A program made the position numbers and the translations under genes. Of a stretch of 53,684 nucleotides of DNA, positions 3,915-23,581 are shown piece by piece (position 1 is the first letter of the stretch; each line of letters opens with the position of its first letter). This stretch comes from an uncultured Desulfotomaculum sp. (GTDB lineage Bacteria > Bacillota > Desulfotomaculia > Desulfotomaculales > Desulfotomaculaceae). The DNA lies in the NCBI GenBank assembly GCA_946411205.1, contig CAMKDG010000004.1, positions 1-53,684 of the forward strand. Reading direction: 5' to 3'. The notes beneath the pieces are model-generated. The model had not been told where the DNA came from and did no database searches. It worked only from the letters and a program-made list of their open reading frames with translations.

Positions 3915-4973
3915 TTATTGAAGAGTTATATTGATCAAGCAGTGGTTGGTTCGATCTTCCAGTTGTTTCATCGTGTCTATTTGCTTTAAAAGTGCTTGGT
4001 TCAAATCAGCAAGCTGTCTTTCCAATTCTTGACTGGACTCACTGGTGAGTTTCGTCTGTAGCACCCCTTGCTCAGTCTTCAGGCGTTCTAACTCCGCCTT
4101 TGCTGTTTGGTGCTGAGCGCTTACGTCCTTTTCAGTGGGCAAATAGGATAAGACACCACCCAATTTTTGCAAAGCACCAATAACCCGTTCAAAGCTTTGC
4201 CGAGGAACTTTTATACCAATGGAACCACTATCTTGAGAACCTAAATAGGTCCCCCCATTACTTAGGGCAATAGAACCTACGGATTTTAAGGCAGCCTCAA
4301 TATCTACAACATCCAACCTCAAGGTAGCACTAACCACTGCCATCTCGGTACTTGGCTTCGGCACATAACCTTCTACCTGCTTTTTCAACGCTTCAGTTAT
4401 CGCGGGAACTGTGGCATGCCCCTGCTGGGGTTCGGGTTGTTTCACTCCAGAGCCTTTATTATTGACCGCACCCTGAGGTTCACTTGACTGCTGCTGCCCC
4501 ATCTGGGAGGGCTGTTGCGCTTTCACTACAGGGGATTCTTTAGTTGCTTTCTGTGGTTCATGAACAGCTACTACACCCTTAGGATTTTGTTCCAGGGGAG
4601 AAAACTGCATACCTTCTTTCTCCCATAGAGAGGTAAGCCCTACAGCCATGGCCATAACGGCAGCTACCGCAACCACCCGATACCAAGAACTCTTGGCAAT
4701 ACCGGTGATATGATCAAAAATATTTTTGTCTTGGGAACTAGCTTGTTGGGACGGCAATTGATCAATTTTCTCCATCAGGCCAACTCTAAATCCGGTTGGC
4801 GGAGCAACCAGGGGTAGTTCCTTAAGCATGCCAATGCAAGCCCTGAGTTCTTCTAACTCAGCACTACATTTTGGACAACGAGCCACATGCAACCGAACAG
4901 CCTCCCGCTCTTCAGTGGCAAGTGCCCCATCCAGATATGGAGATAATAATTCCATAACATCTTGGCAACGCAC
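3915..4973 (-). CDS. Membrane anti-sigma factor (zf-HC2 plus DUF4349-like domain)
   Basis: A 352-residue protein. Residues 1-45 form a ZAS/zf-HC2 zinc anti-sigma domain (His29-x3-Cys33-x2-Cys36 in HVARCPKC). One membrane helix (WYRVVAVAAVMAMAVGLTSLW) sits near residues 97-117, followed by a Gln/Pro/Ser-rich linker. An extracytoplasmic C-terminal part (LRLDVVDIEAALKSVGSIA, then a coiled coil of Glu/Leu/Gln) resembles DUF4349. It starts 14 bases after the stop of the ECF sigma gene, so the two are translated from one message. The zinc domain should hold the sigma factor at the membrane and the outer domain should sense the signal, which is unknown. Confidence 0.85.
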   Translation of the reverse strand: MRCQDVMELLSPYLDGALATEEREAVRLHVARCPKCSAELEELRACIGMLKELPLVAPPTGFRVGLMEKIDQLPSQQASSQDKNIFDHITGIAKSSWYRVVAVAAVMAMAVGLTSLWEKEGMQFSPLEQNPKGVVAVHEPQKATKESPVVKAQQPSQMGQQQSSEPQGAVNNKGSGVKQPEPQQGHATVPAITEALKKQVEGYVPKPSTEMAVVSATLRLDVVDIEAALKSVGSIALSNGGTYLGSQDSGSIGIKVPRQSFERVIGALQKLGGVLSYLPTEKDVSAQHQTAKAELERLKTEQGVLQTKLTSESSQELERQLADLNQALLKQIDTMKQLEDRTNHCLINITLQ

Positions 4974-16812: not shown

Positions 16813-16902
16813 ACATACACCTTCCTCCACTTCGAGTAGGTGATCGTAGTTATTGTGCTGTCACTTGTGAACTATGGGATATACTACCCCCGAGGTGATA
16901 CT

Positions 16903-17745
16903 ATGCTTCCCTTTCCGATTAAACCAATGCTGCTGAAAATTGCTAAAGATCCCTTTGATTCCCCAGATCATCTATTTGAGTGGAAGGTTGACGGAGTTCG
17001 CTGCCTCCTACACTACAATCAAGGCCAAGTGCGCCTGCAAAGTAGAACCGGCAGGGATTGTACCCAGGCCTTTCCCGAATTGCAAAACCCGCCGGTAAAT
17101 GCTACCGATTGTATTCTCGATGGAGAGATCGCCGTTTTTACCGATAGTAAACCAGACATTGAAGGGATTATGGGAAGATATCTGGCCAGCCCCCGGACGG
17201 CAAAGGATTTAATGATCAAAAAACCCGTCAGTTATGTGGTGTGGGATATTCTTTGGTATAACGGTGAATCCCTAACTAACAAACCGCTGCTCGAAAGAAA
17301 AAGTCTGTTAGCTCAGGCCTTGCAAAATAATCAATATGTAACAAAGATGGATTGGCTGGAGAATAACGGCCTGGCCCTCTGGGAAGCGGTAAAAAAGAAC
17401 GGCCTGGAAGGCATCGTGGCCAAACAAAAAAATAGCCCCTATGTACACGGGCGCTCGGAAAAGTGGCTAAAAATTAAGAATTACCAGGAAGCTCTGATTA
17501 ACGTATTGGGCTTTAAGCCGCAGGATGGTTTTGTTTTGGTTGGCACTGGCCATGAGGTACAAGGTCATGCTGTGGGCATTGGTAAAAATGATAAAGCTGC
17601 GTTATGGGAGATCATAGCCAGATACGGCACCACCGATGGCCCCACTACCTGGCTGCCAGCAGGAATTCGCGGTAGAGTAAAATTCACCACCTGGTCCCTT
17701 AAGGGCAATATGCGGGACTGTCATTGGCTAGGTTTTGAGGTATGA
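16903..17745 (+). CDS. ATP-dependent DNA ligase (LigD ligase-domain type)
   Basis: About 280 residues. Motif I is EWKVDGVRCLLHY, whose Lys is the adenylation site; motif III is CILDGEIAVF; motif IV is GLEGIVAKQ; motif V is SEKWLKIKNYQ. An OB-fold follows and is complete (INVLGFKPQDG to WLGFEV). It resembles the ligase domain of bacterial NHEJ LigD, standing alone without polymerase or nuclease domains. No ku gene is in the window, so a role in NHEJ, perhaps in spores, is only an inference. Start ATG 16903 is preceded by GAGGTGAT; the upstream in-frame extension is A/T-rich and unlikely. Confidence 0.85.
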   Translation: MLPFPIKPMLLKIAKDPFDSPDHLFEWKVDGVRCLLHYNQGQVRLQSRTGRDCTQAFPELQNPPVNATDCILDGEIAVFTDSKPDIEGIMGRYLASPRTAKDLMIKKPVSYVVWDILWYNGESLTNKPLLERKSLLAQALQNNQYVTKMDWLENNGLALWEAVKKNGLEGIVAKQKNSPYVHGRSEKWLKIKNYQEALINVLGFKPQDGFVLVGTGHEVQGHAVGIGKNDKAALWEIIARYGTTDGPTTWLPAGIRGRVKFTTWSLKGNMRDCHWLGFEV

Positions 17746-17823
17746 ATGAATCCGTAGAAAAGTATTAGAACGTTGTAATATTTCTGCTAGCATTTGATAT
17801 GTTGATTAAAGGGGGTGGTATTC

Positions 17824-18237
17824 TTGTTGTCTCCCAGCTTAGAAGATTACCTGGAAGAAATCTACCGCATCAGCCTAAGCGGAGAAACCATCAGAGCAAC
17901 TGATATTGCTGCTTGTCTAAACGTTAGTTTGCCTTCCGTCACGAAAGCCATGCAAAAACTCGATGAAAGTAATTATATTAACTACCGTCGTTACAGGGAA
18001 ATTATTTTAACTGATCAGGGTAAGAAGTTAGGTCATTTTTTGGTTGAGAGAAATCGTATTATCCGTGAATTTTTAAAATTAATTGGCTCGACATGCGATG
18101 TTGCGGCAGAAGCCGAAGCAATGGAGCATTATCTTTCTCTTCCCACCCTATCGGCAATCATTAATTTTGTAAAATTCAGCCACGAGCATCCTGCTTGGTT
18201 GGATCAATACAAAGACTTCTGTCAAAAAAACATCTAA
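17824..18237 (+). CDS. DtxR/MntR-family metal-dependent regulator, atypical ligand set
   Basis: About 137 residues. An N-terminal winged helix (SPSLEDYLEEIYRI, then LNVSLPSVTKAMQKLDE) is followed by the metal-dependent dimerisation domain (EAMEHYLS); there is no SH3 domain, as in MntR. Aligned by eye with Bacillus MntR, Asp8, Glu11, Glu99, Glu102 and His103 equivalents are present. The position of His77, however, is Asn (VERNRIIREFL). That could change metal specificity or affinity. The starts TTG 17824 and 17827 both follow AAGGGGGTGG. No transporter gene adjoins it. Confidence 0.82.
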   Translation: MLSPSLEDYLEEIYRISLSGETIRATDIAACLNVSLPSVTKAMQKLDESNYINYRRYREIILTDQGKKLGHFLVERNRIIREFLKLIGSTCDVAAEAEAMEHYLSLPTLSAIINFVKFSHEHPAWLDQYKDFCQKNI

Positions 18238-18260: not shown

Positions 18261-19079
18261 CTAATACGGTATTAAGCCGCAGTCTTCCAGGAGTTGTTGG
18301 CCTCTTTTGCTTAAAATCAGTTCCAAAAAGACCTTCGCTATAGCCGTATTTTCGGCATTTTTAGGGATAGCGACGGCAAATTCAAGAGGTGCTCCGGCAA
18401 TGGTAATCATCTCACCAGAGCTTTTTCCCTGCAAGCTGACGGTGGCCTGGCTATAATAGGCCGCATGTGCCGGATTGGAGAGATTTATCTTCTCTGGCAA
18501 AGTCAGGTACTTAAGACCAAATTGATTGGTTACACAAAGATAGGCAAAGGCATAATCCAGTTTACCCACCAGCACATCTGCAGCTAAATCGTAGGACTTA
18601 GCATAAATCAAATCTCCTCGGCACCTTCGATCGAGGTTCCTGAAAAGATCCGGGCGTTGATAATAGTGTTCTGCTAATTGCCACACCATGAGAGTTCGGT
18701 AACCGCAAGGGTCTAAGTTTTGGTTGGATCTCCCATAAATGACCTCCTCTTGGCAAAGGATGTCAAACCAATTTTGCCCATCGATTTCCCCGCTACCCTT
18801 AGAAAACTCGTTATAGGCCAGCACAATCTGGTCATTCGCAAAAATATAGTATTTATCTATATATTCCGGCCCTAGCAGTTCTTCAAAAAGCATCGGGTCC
18901 GCCAACGCCAGAATATCCACTACCTTACCTTCCCGCACCTGCCTCGCACAGGCCCGTGAACCAAAAGATTCCGGCCGGATGTCCACTTCCGGATAAACCT
19001 CCTGCAAGAGTTTAGCACAATCCACCATTGGTTTACGCAAAGCACCGGCATGTAATATTTTTAAGACCTGATTGCTCAC
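18261..19079 (-). CDS. Cytoplasmic tungstate/molybdate-binding-like protein (WtpA/ModA fold)
   Basis: A 272-residue substrate-binding protein of the WtpA type: LKILHAGALRKPM, RPESFGSRACARQV, DILALADPMLFEELL, and DPCGYRTLMVWQLAEHYYQ match the oxyanion-binding family. A signal peptide or lipobox is missing, and the start is fixed because its ATG overlaps the stop of the PadR gene by four bases. It should therefore stay in the cytoplasm. No ABC permease or ATPase is nearby. With a regulator and a TSUP permease in the same operon, an intracellular sensor or storage role for molybdate, tungstate or a similar oxyanion is an inference. Confidence 0.82.
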   Translation of the reverse strand: MSNQVLKILHAGALRKPMVDCAKLLQEVYPEVDIRPESFGSRACARQVREGKVVDILALADPMLFEELLGPEYIDKYYIFANDQIVLAYNEFSKGSGEIDGQNWFDILCQEEVIYGRSNQNLDPCGYRTLMVWQLAEHYYQRPDLFRNLDRRCRGDLIYAKSYDLAADVLVGKLDYAFAYLCVTNQFGLKYLTLPEKINLSNPAHAAYYSQATVSLQGKSSGEMITIAGAPLEFAVAIPKNAENTAIAKVFLELILSKRGQQLLEDCGLIPY

Positions 19080-19453
19080 CTATCCTTCACCTCCCGCCGA
19101 TATTCCTCTAAAAAAGCCTGCATTTTTCCTACTTTCTCACTGATTAATTTTACACAGTAATCCAGGGCCTGATGCCCCTCGGTACTTAACTGGTAAGACC
19201 GTCGGGCAGGGCCCGTGTGCTCGGTTTCCCAATGGGAGATGACCAAGCCGTCTTCCTCCATCCGACGGAGGTTTCTATAAATGGTGGCAGGATCTGCCTC
19301 AATTTCTGAAAAACCGGATTCATTAATTTTTTGAATTAACTCATAGCCATGGGCAGGTTTTTGAGCTAACTGATAGAGCAAAGTAGGCACCAGCATCTTA
19401 TCGATGCGTCCCGTAATATAAACATAGGCGGAGCTTTGCTGTTCTTCCTGCAT
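19076..19453 (-). CDS. PadR-family transcriptional regulator
   Basis: About 125 residues. The PadR winged helix spans LVPTLLYQLAQKPAHGYELI to PATIYRNLRRMEEDGLVISH, with RRSYQLSTEGHQAL in the wing. A C-terminal helix serves for dimerisation. The ATG at 19453 is chosen because GAGGTGA lies five bases before it; the longer frame to 19525 would overlap the control region. It overlaps the downstream binding-protein gene by four bases and follows the TSUP permease gene by about 75, so all three are probably one operon. It is likely to regulate that operon, but the ligand is unknown. Confidence 0.87.
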   Translation of the reverse strand: MQEEQQSSAYVYITGRIDKMLVPTLLYQLAQKPAHGYELIQKINESGFSEIEADPATIYRNLRRMEEDGLVISHWETEHTGPARRSYQLSTEGHQALDYCVKLISEKVGKMQAFLEEYRREVKDR

Positions 19454-19528
19454 CGGGTTCACCTCAAATTCTATCCCAAGAGTATGCCTAATACTACCAT
19501 GATTAAGATACGATGAAAACGGCACTTT

Positions 19529-20497
19529 TTAAAAGAAATACTGGCTAATGTAACCAAAGGCCAGGAACAAAATAAGGATCGTGAGGATAACTTTGATCAC
19601 TTTATCTGGCATAAATTTCTGAATGCGGGCCCCCACGTAAGTTCCCAGTAAGCCGCCAATACCAAAAAGAGCACCCAGTTGCCAATCCGGCGCTACGGCA
19701 ACCTGACTGGCAATAGCCGTGGTAGCCAAAATGTGGTAATAAACAACACCGGCAATGGAGGTAATAAAGGTGCCCGCTAAAGCAGCACCGGCCACGGTGT
19801 AAACAGGGAGACCCAACACGGCTACGCAGAAGGGGGAAATAATAGCCCCACCCCCAATACCATAAATACCCCCAATGAAACCAACCACTAAAGCTAAACT
19901 GAGAATGGCTGTCGTGCTAAAGGAATAGGTTTCACCCCAAAATTCGTACTCAATCTTTTTCCAGGAAACAGTTTTTGTTTTTACCACTGCCTCGGCAGGC
20001 AAACCTGCTGCCAGACGGCCGGAGTTTTCCTCCTTCTTTTTTGCCACCTGTTCAGCAAATTTTTTCTGCATCAGCTCATTCTGTTCTTTTACTTTCTTGT
20101 TCCAGCCCAGCACTTCGGAGAGCAGCCGATAGCCCAGGTATAGAAGCACTAGCCCCATAAACAGTTTGAATGCTTTGGGATCGGGTAGATACAGAATCCT
20201 AATATAAGCTCCAAAGAAAACCCCCGGCAGGGTACCGATAACCACGATCCAGGTAAGGGGCCAGGCCATACGGCCTTCTTTAATATAGCGGTAGAGACCG
20301 CCTGGAATAGCGATGATATTGTAAATTAAGTTTGTGGGACTTACCGAGGGGCTGGTATAATGCAGTACACTAACTTGGAAGGGTAGCAGTAAAAAGGCTC
20401 CAGACACACCGGCAGAAGCTACCAGCGAAGATACTAAAAATGCCACCAATGGCGGAATAAAAGGTAGTACATCGACACCGGAGACAGAAAAATGCAT
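19529..20497 (-). CDS. TSUP (TauE/SafE) family permease
   Basis: A 322-residue membrane protein with the two-part TauE/SafE pattern. The N-terminal half reads VASAGVSGAFLLLPFQVSVL and SPTNLIYNIIAIPGGLYRYI. A charged cytoplasmic loop of about 65 residues follows (KKVKEQNELMQKKF). The C-terminal half has VVGFIGGIYGIGGGAIISPF and FGIGGLLGTYVGARIQKFMP. TSUP proteins move sulfite, sulfoacetate, sulfate-related or other oxyanions. As first gene of the operon with PadR and the WtpA-like protein it probably transports the anion that they sense. Start ATG 20497 follows GGAGGGAG. Confidence 0.9.
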   Translation of the reverse strand: MHFSVSGVDVLPFIPPLVAFLVSSLVASAGVSGAFLLLPFQVSVLHYTSPSVSPTNLIYNIIAIPGGLYRYIKEGRMAWPLTWIVVIGTLPGVFFGAYIRILYLPDPKAFKLFMGLVLLYLGYRLLSEVLGWNKKVKEQNELMQKKFAEQVAKKKEENSGRLAAGLPAEAVVKTKTVSWKKIEYEFWGETYSFSTTAILSLALVVGFIGGIYGIGGGAIISPFCVAVLGLPVYTVAGAALAGTFITSIAGVVYYHILATTAIASQVAVAPDWQLGALFGIGGLLGTYVGARIQKFMPDKVIKVILTILILFLAFGYISQYFF

Positions 20498-20569
20498 AAG
20501 CTCCCTCCTTTACGTTAGTTAAACAACAAATCCCTTACATAAGTGCACGATGCATATATGATTGTTATA

Positions 20570-20598
20570 ATAATATGTTTATTAAAAAAATCTGTCAA
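20570..20598 (-). promoter_or_regulatory. Sigma-A promoter of the TSUP-padR-binding protein operon
   Basis: On the minus strand TTGACA (20598-20593) and TATTAT (20575-20570) are spaced 17 bases apart, about 75 bases before the permease start. A further TATAAC just downstream makes the exact -10 uncertain. Confidence 0.6.
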
Positions 20599-21492: not shown

Positions 21493-21529
21493 CCAAAAAG
21501 AACATCCGGTAGCCAAGTTACCGGATGTT
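21493..21529 (-). terminator. Terminator of the hydrogenase-like gene
   Basis: On the minus strand AACATCCGGTA pairs with TACCGGATGTT, followed by CTTTTTGG. The hairpin touches the last codon of the gene. Confidence 0.82.
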
Positions 21530-23244
21530 TAAACATAATTTCTTCCTATGTTAGCCATGGCCGCTCCGATGTTAAGTAATTGATCGTAGGTGGCCACAAT
21601 TTGCTCCAGGGAGTTGGTAACCACTTTAATGGCTTTTTCTTGTTCCAAAATCATATCACTATCTTCTTGAAGCCGTGTAAGAACACTGGCAATATCTTCA
21701 AAAACACGAGTGGCATTTTCGGACTGCAGCTTACTTTGGGCGGCAATTTGCTTGATATCTGCCACCTCTGCGGCAGCCAAGTTGACTGGCCCGTTATGAC
21801 CAGCTGAGGGAACCTCGTACTGGGAAACCATGGTCAAGACTTTATGGGCTAAGCCCAAGGTATCGCTGGCAATCACATTAGTTTCCGCCAAGAGGGTTTC
21901 TAAATGTTGATTCTTACTATTCATCTTTGAGGTAGTACCCTTTAAGGTTAGGGTAGAGAAATTAATGGACTCCATGGAAAGCATTAATTTGTTGCTCATA
22001 TCCATCAAACTATTGGTTAAAGAAGGGACTTGCCTTAATAAAAAGGGCAAACACATTTCTTTTTCTGCCATCCCTTGCAGACAGGCAACTGCCTTTTCCC
22101 AACAAGTATCATAACCACAGGCACTACAATTAATCAAATCATGATTACTGTATTTGCCGGTTTCTTTTAAGGTCTGCCAAATTTCCTCCTCTGTAAAGCT
22201 TTTCTTGGCTAGAGGTTGGGGAGTAAATACTCGTTCAAAGGTCAACTGACTCACCAGCGTAGGTAACTTTTCATTTTCCTTGTTTTGATTTTGATGAATC
22301 TGTTCAGCAACTTGTCGAGCACGAACGACATAGGATTTATCACTTAACATACCAGGGCCCATTACACAGCCCTCGCAAACTAACATATCTAAAAAACGCG
22401 GCGTAAACTCGCCGTTTTCCATCGCCTTTAACACTTCAATACAACGGCCGGCCCCTTCCACCACCACAATTTCCATACTGGCTATATCTTCCTGGATATT
22501 AGAAGATTTTAGCAACCCGCCACTGATCGGAAAGGCCCGGGACAGCTCCGGCTTGGGATTATCCCAAAGGGCATCCTCCAACTCATGCCAAACAAGGTTT
22601 TCTTGAGCAAACCACTGGTTAAGCTGCCGAAAGGTAACAACCGCATCTATGTAACCAGCAGTATTAACATCCTCGGCTTCGTATTTTTTGGCTAAACAAG
22701 GTCCCAAAAAAACGATTTTATGATCGGGATACAGGGCTTTCACGATCTTGGACTGTATTAGCATCGGTGAATCGATGGGTGCCAGATGAGGCAGCAAACT
22801 AGGGAAATGTTTCTCAACCAATTGAACAACAGCCGGACAGGCGGTTGAAATCGTCATCTGTGCCGGGTGCTGTTGATAATAACGGGCATATTCCTTGGCG
22901 CATACTCCAGCACCATAAGCCACTTCTTGAACGGTAGAAAATCCCAGGCGACGCAAAGCACTTACCATTTTACCGCCTGGGATCGCAAAGGATGCTGGAA
23001 AAGAAGGGGCTACAATGGCTGCTACCGATTGCCCTTGGGCAATCCACTGCTGTACCATGGCTGTATCATCATGAACAACCTTAGCACCAATGGAACAGGC
23101 CAAAACACAATGACCACAGGCCAAACAACCTTCTTCCATAATCTCTGGCAATCCTTTTTTGATGGCAATCGTTTTAACAGGACAAGCCCTGACACAGGCA
23201 TAACACTTACGGCAATTTTCATGATCAGTTATTATGAGTGGCAT
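21529..23244 (-). CDS. [FeFe]-hydrogenase-like iron-sulfur protein with signalling-type C-terminus
   Basis: About 571 residues. Two [4Fe-4S] motifs come first (CRKCYACVRACP, Cys11-21; CLACGHCVLACS, Cys40-50). Next is an [FeFe]-hydrogenase large-subunit core with altered H-cluster loops: STACPAVV for TSCCPxW, FLGPCLAKKYEAE for MPCxxKxxE, and MLVCEGCVMGPG for the third motif. A Fe4 domain (INCSACGYDTCWEKAV) follows. About 150 helical residues, rich in Ser/Gln/Ala heptads, resemble the signalling helices of chemoreceptors. There is no catalytic partner nearby. The layout fits the putatively sensory hydrogenase groups rather than a bulk enzyme; that is an inference. The ATG at 23244 follows GGGGGGTGA. 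Confidence 0.85.
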   Translation of the reverse strand: MPLIITDHENCRKCYACVRACPVKTIAIKKGLPEIMEEGCLACGHCVLACSIGAKVVHDDTAMVQQWIAQGQSVAAIVAPSFPASFAIPGGKMVSALRRLGFSTVQEVAYGAGVCAKEYARYYQQHPAQMTISTACPAVVQLVEKHFPSLLPHLAPIDSPMLIQSKIVKALYPDHKIVFLGPCLAKKYEAEDVNTAGYIDAVVTFRQLNQWFAQENLVWHELEDALWDNPKPELSRAFPISGGLLKSSNIQEDIASMEIVVVEGAGRCIEVLKAMENGEFTPRFLDMLVCEGCVMGPGMLSDKSYVVRARQVAEQIHQNQNKENEKLPTLVSQLTFERVFTPQPLAKKSFTEEEIWQTLKETGKYSNHDLINCSACGYDTCWEKAVACLQGMAEKEMCLPFLLRQVPSLTNSLMDMSNKLMLSMESINFSTLTLKGTTSKMNSKNQHLETLLAETNVIASDTLGLAHKVLTMVSQYEVPSAGHNGPVNLAAAEVADIKQIAAQSKLQSENATRVFEDIASVLTRLQEDSDMILEQEKAIKVVTNSLEQIVATYDQLLNIGAAMANIGRNYV

Positions 23245-23581
23245 GGGAATCACCCCCCGGTAAAGAAGTCACTAGTATCTGTATTTCGACAGAATACTTA
23301 TTTATCCTTTTAACATTCAATTAGTTTTAGGAATACATATCAAACATACTTTTAAGGTTGTTTATACTTGTTTAATCCATTGGGTAAAACAATCTACTAT
23401 GCTTACCCTTTTCTATGCAAAAATAGTGCCTTAGTATAAGAAAGGGCTGCTTTAGTTTTTTCTAACTGAGTTTTCCCAATCGAAACACTTCACCTGTATT
23501 ATTATTGAACGACGTGTTCAATCCTCGTCAGTTGTCTTGGCTGGTGTGGTATAATGGATACCGATCAAAAGGAGGGAAACT
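23245..23581. other. Intergenic region upstream of two divergent genes
   Basis: No gene is supported. It contains a short copy of the dispersed repeat (23432-23463, minus), the perfect palindrome TTGAACGACGTGTTCAA (23505-23521), and a TATAAT (23550-23555) that is probably the -10 of the UPF0489 gene; no good -35 is seen at 17 bases. The palindrome lies just upstream of the -35 position and may be an operator. Confidence 0.5.
23432..23463 (-). repeat. Dispersed hairpin repeat, short copy E
   Basis: On the minus strand it reads AGAAAAAACTAAAGC, then CCCTTTCTTATACTAAGG. It has both ends of the repeat family but lacks the central inverted part, as after an internal deletion. Confidence 0.45.

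Follow-up and report, generated by a model that had tools for sequence, protein, structure and literature searches.

A PadR repressor paired with a signal-less WtpA-like protein: a predicted oxyanion-responsive switch of transporter genes in Gram-positive sulfate reducers

In the 53,684-nucleotide stretch of DNA that was analyzed (the window), which makes up contig C4 of a Desulforamulus-like genome of 3.6 Mb, genes for a TSUP permease, a PadR-family protein, and a WtpA-like binding protein lacking a signal peptide form a single minus-strand operon (Table 1). There is strong computational support that PadR and the signal-less WtpA-like protein are an obligate pair, which in one case is fused. 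We suggest that together they probably constitute one intracellular oxyanion-responsive repressor acting on oxyanion transporters, for which the likeliest ligand would be a group-6 oxyanion.

Results

The three genes are found where the earlier note on this DNA had placed them, on the minus strand, and the products match PF01925 with 127 bits (gathering score, 32.6), PF03551 with 68 bits (gathering cut-off, 27), and PF13531 with 88 bits. The translational coupling proposed for padR and the WtpA-like gene fits with the 4-bp overlap (GTGA) of the padR stop with the start of the WtpA-like gene. The padR ORF as listed, starting at 19525, is longer than its homologues, which are mostly 113–147 aa, and an ATG at 19453, preceded by GAGGTG, yields a PadR of 125 aa; the listed ORF is probably too long, and this ATG the true start. 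The best NCBIfam match of PadR is of the PhaQ type, under the cut-off. The WtpA-like protein is 96% identical to that of the closest named locus, in Desulforamulus aeronauticus DSM 10349.

Table 1. Predicted features of the operon and its surroundings, in window coordinates.
Feature	Position	Strand	Remarks
TSUP-family permease (TauE/SafE)	19529..20497	-	322 aa; first gene of the operon; PF01925
PadR-family winged-helix repressor	19076..19525	-	PF03551; adjoins the WtpA-like gene in all loci
Signal-less WtpA-like protein of periplasmic-binding fold	18261..19079	-	272 aa; PF13531
Predicted palindromic operator TATATGCATCGTGCACTTA (minus-strand reading)	20540..20558		Sole exact match in the genome
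Sigma-70-type promoter TTGACA-N17-TATTAT	20570..20598	-	Directly upstream of the operator
Stand-alone ATP-dependent DNA ligase	16840..17745		NHEJ LigD type
MntR/DtxR-like metal-dependent regulator	17815..18237		Convergent with the WtpA-like gene
[FeFe]-hydrogenase large-subunit C domain, ferredoxin clusters, FeS domain	21529..23253		574 aa; far under hydrogenase cut-offs; possibly a sensory hydrogenase-like protein

The absence of ABC genes, which the earlier note had also asserted, holds for the locus, where none adjoin, but not for the genome, since ModABC, a second Mod-like ABC system, and a fused HTH-PBP_like regulator are present on another contig. Thus, the classical uptake of molybdate seems to be handled by separate systems. 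On that contig (L112, G000:C130, 86–6329), the HTH_17-PBP_like (PF12727) regulator, which represents intracellular PBP sensors in their classic, fused form, is divergent from modABC, and the second Mod-like system follows.

Across the genomes compared, padR is directly upstream and on the same strand in 54 of 54 signal-less WtpA loci, that is, the window and 53 further loci, including one in which padR and WtpA are a single gene. The two genes often overlap, by 4, 8, or 11 bp. The single gene (L076, G068:C66, 5406–6659) is a continuous ORF of 417 aa that contains both PF03551 (28–100) and PF13531 (151–414). Of 150 related genomes, 60 encode a WtpA-like homologue, a count that takes in secreted WtpA. 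The module is present across many genera and many families of the order; outside the order, among 398 genomes of the phylum, the pair occurs only in G115 and G263, of one genus. Hence the conserved TSUP-padR-wtpA synteny that the earlier note had wanted checked spans many genera, with TSUP as the usual transporter, and the 53 further loci with the pair led us to reject a synteny limited to the genome of the window.

There are also departures from the simple pair. In L095 (G007:C51), the WtpA-like gene is broken by an internal stop while PadR is intact, and the TSUP of that genome keeps an operator elsewhere (L131). Extra PadR genes that have no WtpA-like partner of their own (L168, G087:C1:2815644–2815787; L074; L090; L092) are divergent from or unlinked to the pair, and the same operator stands in front of them, once or twice. 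PadR-family members may cross-talk.

The WtpA-like protein matches archaeal WtpA/ModA structures, but with 245 bits (cut-off, 355) and 221 bits (cut-off, 242.75) it is under both NCBIfam WtpA equivalog cut-offs; a secreted homologue (L097) is above both. The first strand has the conserved HAGAL motif, which begins at residue 10 and leaves no room for a signal peptide, and the conserved domain begins at residue 5–10 throughout the signal-less clade, so the missing signal peptide was correctly recognized. Secreted WtpA proteins (L096–L106) are 335–366 aa long and carry a lipobox cysteine (10 of 10 sequences) that every signal-less sequence lacks, and most of their genes are followed by wtpB and wtpC (permease cluster c3 and ATPase cluster c2). 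No wtpBC genes were found in the neighborhoods of the signal-less members, and an ABC-linked function is therefore rejected. In the maximum-likelihood tree, a branch with 99% support separates the signal-less from the secreted proteins. Homologues with a signal peptide and ABC genes, which would have refuted the original proposal, are thus missing from the signal-less clade and belong to a clade of their own. Distant relatives of the secreted type, with at most about 35% identity, are encoded on plasmids of haloarchaea, Pantoea, and Burkholderia-group bacteria.

An AlphaFold2 model of the WtpA-like protein, made with an alignment of 11 homologues, has a pLDDT of 95. The best PDB matches of the model are tungstate- or molybdate-bound WtpA/ModA (3cfx, 3cij, and 2onr), with a TM score of 0.92, and as modeled, the protein has the WtpA/ModA fold. 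The Pfam scan gave no PF12727 match in the WtpA-like protein or in the PadR-WtpA fusion.

The regions upstream of the first gene of the module, 54 in number, were searched for dyads. The dyad TGCAN3TGCA was observed in 14 of them, with 0.3 expected, and was extended to TAWNTGCANNNTGCANWTA, a 19-bp palindromic predicted operator that is conserved across the clade. In the 665 kb of module loci, a matrix of 15 sites finds 46 places with at least 14 bits, almost all of them just upstream of TSUP or PadR. These lie in about 40 of the 54 loci (counted from the listing, seed sites included), and the operator is not recognizable at the score used in about a quarter of the module loci. In the loci in which TSUP lies apart from the pair or converges with it (L059, L062, L065, L071, and L072), the site precedes TSUP. 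In the window, the promoter agrees with the consensus at 11 of 12 bases, more than any other match in the region, and the operator is at about +5 to +23, ahead of TSUP. A repressor bound there, just downstream of the promoter, would block transcription.

The exact pattern occurs at 26 sites in 120 genomes, compared with 1 for the reversed control pattern. Twenty-one of these are at the module, and 3 are elsewhere in module genomes, ahead of TSUP (G007 and G008) or ChrA (G024); the 2 in module-less genomes are inside ORFs, as expected by chance. When one mismatch was allowed, G002 and G004 each gave a single site, ahead of a TSUP gene unlinked to the pair, and G001 and G006 also have a site ahead of an unlinked TSUP. 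Further sites precede ChrA (G036), MOT1 (G044), and a DASS transporter (G069). These single cases are weaker than the TSUP series, because one-mismatch matches include chance sites. The placement of the predicted operator before TSUP, unlinked TSUP genes included, has strong computational support, and the pairing, the fusion, and the operator with its targets are all computed results. Control of oxyanion transporters by PadR, as predicted from these sites, is well supported by the genomic evidence, as are the pairing and the operator, with several lines of evidence that are independent of each other. The predicted regulon extends beyond TSUP, to MOT1, ChrA, and probably DASS. The suggestion that PadR controls the permease can be retained for the operator before TSUP, but the permease is not a fixed component.

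The exchange of the neighboring transporter was followed on a tree of 53 signal-less proteins, with the window included and the broken G007 copy left out. The pair is adjacent to TSUP in 43, to a MOT1-type molybdate transporter (PF16983) in 4, to ChrA (PF02417) in 2, and to none of these in 4. The tree requires at least 3 separate acquisitions or losses of MOT1 and 2 for ChrA. A TSUP orthologue (E 1e-80) is present in 74 of 120 relatives, nearly always in single copy. Since four genomes with MOT1 or ChrA beside the pair (G026, G034, G036, and G082) are not among them, MOT1 or ChrA seems to replace TSUP. The idea that this TSUP is purely a sulfate-reducer gene was rejected, as the orthologue is also found in genomes without dsrA over the cut-off (e.g., G016, G033, and G056). 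In Desulforamulus putei, the module has a TSUP fragment of 109 aa (L047, about 4010–4339), and an intact TSUP with the operator is located elsewhere (L149, G001:C11), with a 25-aa WtpA-like remnant just downstream.

DsrA is over the cut-off in 46 of 48 module genomes, with fragments in the other two, and in 34 of 102 module-less genomes (Fisher test, p = 2.7e-14, which ignores shared ancestry and is descriptive only). The module is confined to dsrA-bearing genomes, and this suggests sulfur oxyanions as much as molybdenum.

In P. furiosus WtpA, Asp160 and Glu218 coordinate the metal directly, and Asp160 sets the tungstate selectivity (PMC10221389, PMC4139814). These columns were located in our alignment via the A. 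fulgidus, M. jannaschii, and M. acetivorans sequences. The Asp (Asp123 in the window protein) is invariant in 53 of 53 signal-less proteins. The Glu, which is Glu in the three archaeal proteins, is Ser in 52 of 53 (Ser162 in the window protein). Thus, one of the two carboxylates of WtpA is kept and the other lost, and the loss of the second suggests that the ligand, or its geometry, may differ from that of WtpA.

Discussion

How might the two proteins work together? We infer that the WtpA-like protein is a ligand sensor because of the fusion, the coupling, and the pocket. PadR would be the DNA-binding half, and the WtpA-like protein the sensing half, of one repressor. PadR dimers would bind the operator just downstream of the promoter, and the bound repressor would keep down the expression of oxyanion transporters organized as an operon or regulon, mostly TSUP, also MOT1 and ChrA, and occasionally DASS, together with the padR and WtpA-like genes themselves. 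The WtpA-like protein would stay in the cytoplasm and close around a tetrahedral oxyanion, and in its anion-bound form it would signal to PadR by direct contact, with the anion either releasing or tightening PadR. The expression of the transporter would thereby track the intracellular level of the anion. In this scheme, the contact with PadR, the binding of a ligand, its identity, and its effect on PadR are all predicted steps. Four observations speak against it: the replacement of the second carboxylate by Ser, the confinement of the module to dsrA-bearing genomes, the ModABC system that the genome of the window already has, with an HTH-PBP regulator of its own, and the module loci in which the operator is not recognizable.

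What is the ligand? ModA-type proteins are known to bind group-6 oxyanions (PMC9171197). We favor molybdate, tungstate, or chromate, because the Asp is retained and because MOT1 and ChrA are the exchanged transporters, and a group-6 ligand appears fairly likely. Since the Glu is lost and the module is linked to dsrA, sulfate is also a candidate, and a sulfur oxyanion of some kind is possible, with clearly lower probability. The same switch might then respond to sulfate, or to sulfite or thiosulfate, and tune sulfate transport to supply, with the lost carboxylate marking a shift from metal coordination to plain hydrogen bonding of a tetrahedral anion. This is in keeping with the occurrence of the module solely in genomes with dissimilatory sulfite reductase, with the absence of Glu218, and, in single genomes, with DASS and SulP genes that lie close to the operator or under it. 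Furthermore, TSUP and DASS are among the putative sulfate transporters of sulfate reducers, which switch high-affinity sulfate uptake by a molecular regulation that is unknown (PMC5840216). However, sulfate would be repelled by the invariant Asp123, the tungstate-selectivity ligand; MOT1 and ChrA, the exchanged transporters, belong to molybdate and chromate families, respectively; and the TSUP orthologue occurs without dsrA as well. We regard the sulfur-oxyanion version of the switch as rather doubtful.

Two further explanations would give the WtpA-like protein no part in sensing. It could be an intracellular carrier or store of oxyanion for molybdenum-enzyme assembly, with PadR sensing alone and merely sharing the operon; a soluble binding protein could buffer molybdate, and many PadR proteins bind ligands directly. 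This is quite improbable in view of the PadR-WtpA fusion and of an adjacency that persists in every locus, even with the transporter elsewhere or exchanged; in addition, no recurrent molybdenum-enzyme genes were found beside the pair in the neighborhoods of the signal-less loci. It could also be a relic: a former WtpA, now without signal peptide and ABC partners, that drifts and is retained by operon structure alone. The broken copy in G007 is what a relic would produce, but conservation is at least 95% in about 65 alignment columns of the 53 sequences, with pocket residues among them, and the protein has persisted in many families of the order, so that a relic is hardly credible.

The preferred reading, an oxyanion-responsive PadR/WtpA-like repressor, has a bolder form. 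Molybdate is a classical inhibitor of sulfate reduction. The WtpA-like protein might be a detachable sensing subunit of PadR whose ligand in sulfate reducers is a Mo or W species, possibly thiomolybdate, and the module might guard sulfate activation. We put this forward as speculation and consider it unlikely. If true, a repurposed transport binding protein would define a new class of anion switch in bacteria, the Glu-to-Ser change would accommodate the ligand, possibly thiomolybdate that arises with sulfide from the cell itself, and the module would protect sulfate activation from molybdate.

For oxyanion transport in Gram-positive sulfate reducers, these results supply a regulator, a sensor, an operator, and a set of targets, all of them predicted. 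In the literature consulted, we found no named regulator in these organisms for sulfate-transport switching or for the control of molybdate, tungstate, and chromate, which resemble sulfate. The results also point to the conversion of a transport binding protein to an intracellular sensor through loss of the signal peptide, and they predict that the conserved, uncharacterized TSUP permease performs a job that MOT1 or ChrA can assume. In the PMC literature, which was searched non-exhaustively, we found no description of such a pair in connection with PadR and molybdate/tungstate, TSUP, or oxyanion binding proteins, nor of a PadR protein that uses this operator and has a WtpA-like protein as its separate partner.

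Several known systems share parts of this arrangement. The WtpA of WtpABC has the same fold (TM 0.92 to its structures), sequence family, and tungstate-selectivity Asp (PMC10221389), whereas the WtpA-like protein has no signal peptide, lipobox, or wtpBC, scores under both NCBIfam cut-offs, has Ser in place of Glu218, and is always paired with PadR. ModE is a repressor in the cytoplasm that responds to an oxyanion and acts on an oxyanion transporter operon (PMC4139814), as the proposed switch would. Here, however, the sensor would be WtpA-like and the DNA-binding part is PadR, and no ModE similarity was reported for the window proteins in the Pfam and NCBIfam scans. Repressors of the PadR/PhaQ/LmrR type share PF03551 and have a palindromic operator, like the one predicted here, overlapping the start of their own operon; known members sense by themselves, whereas this PadR comes with a binding-protein partner. 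TunR is a tungstate-responsive regulator. The use of a binding-protein fold inside the cell with a DNA-binding domain is already known in kind. The HTH-PBP_like regulators (PF12728/HTH_17 with PF12727), one of which is encoded in the same genome (L112:86–1045) next to molybdate transport genes, a setting that the PadR/WtpA-like pair may share, also combine an intracellular PBP fold with a DNA-binding domain. They are, however, of another PBP family, with an excisionase-type HTH in a single chain, whereas here a PadR protein is joined by a stand-alone WtpA-like partner, and the two have been fused once.
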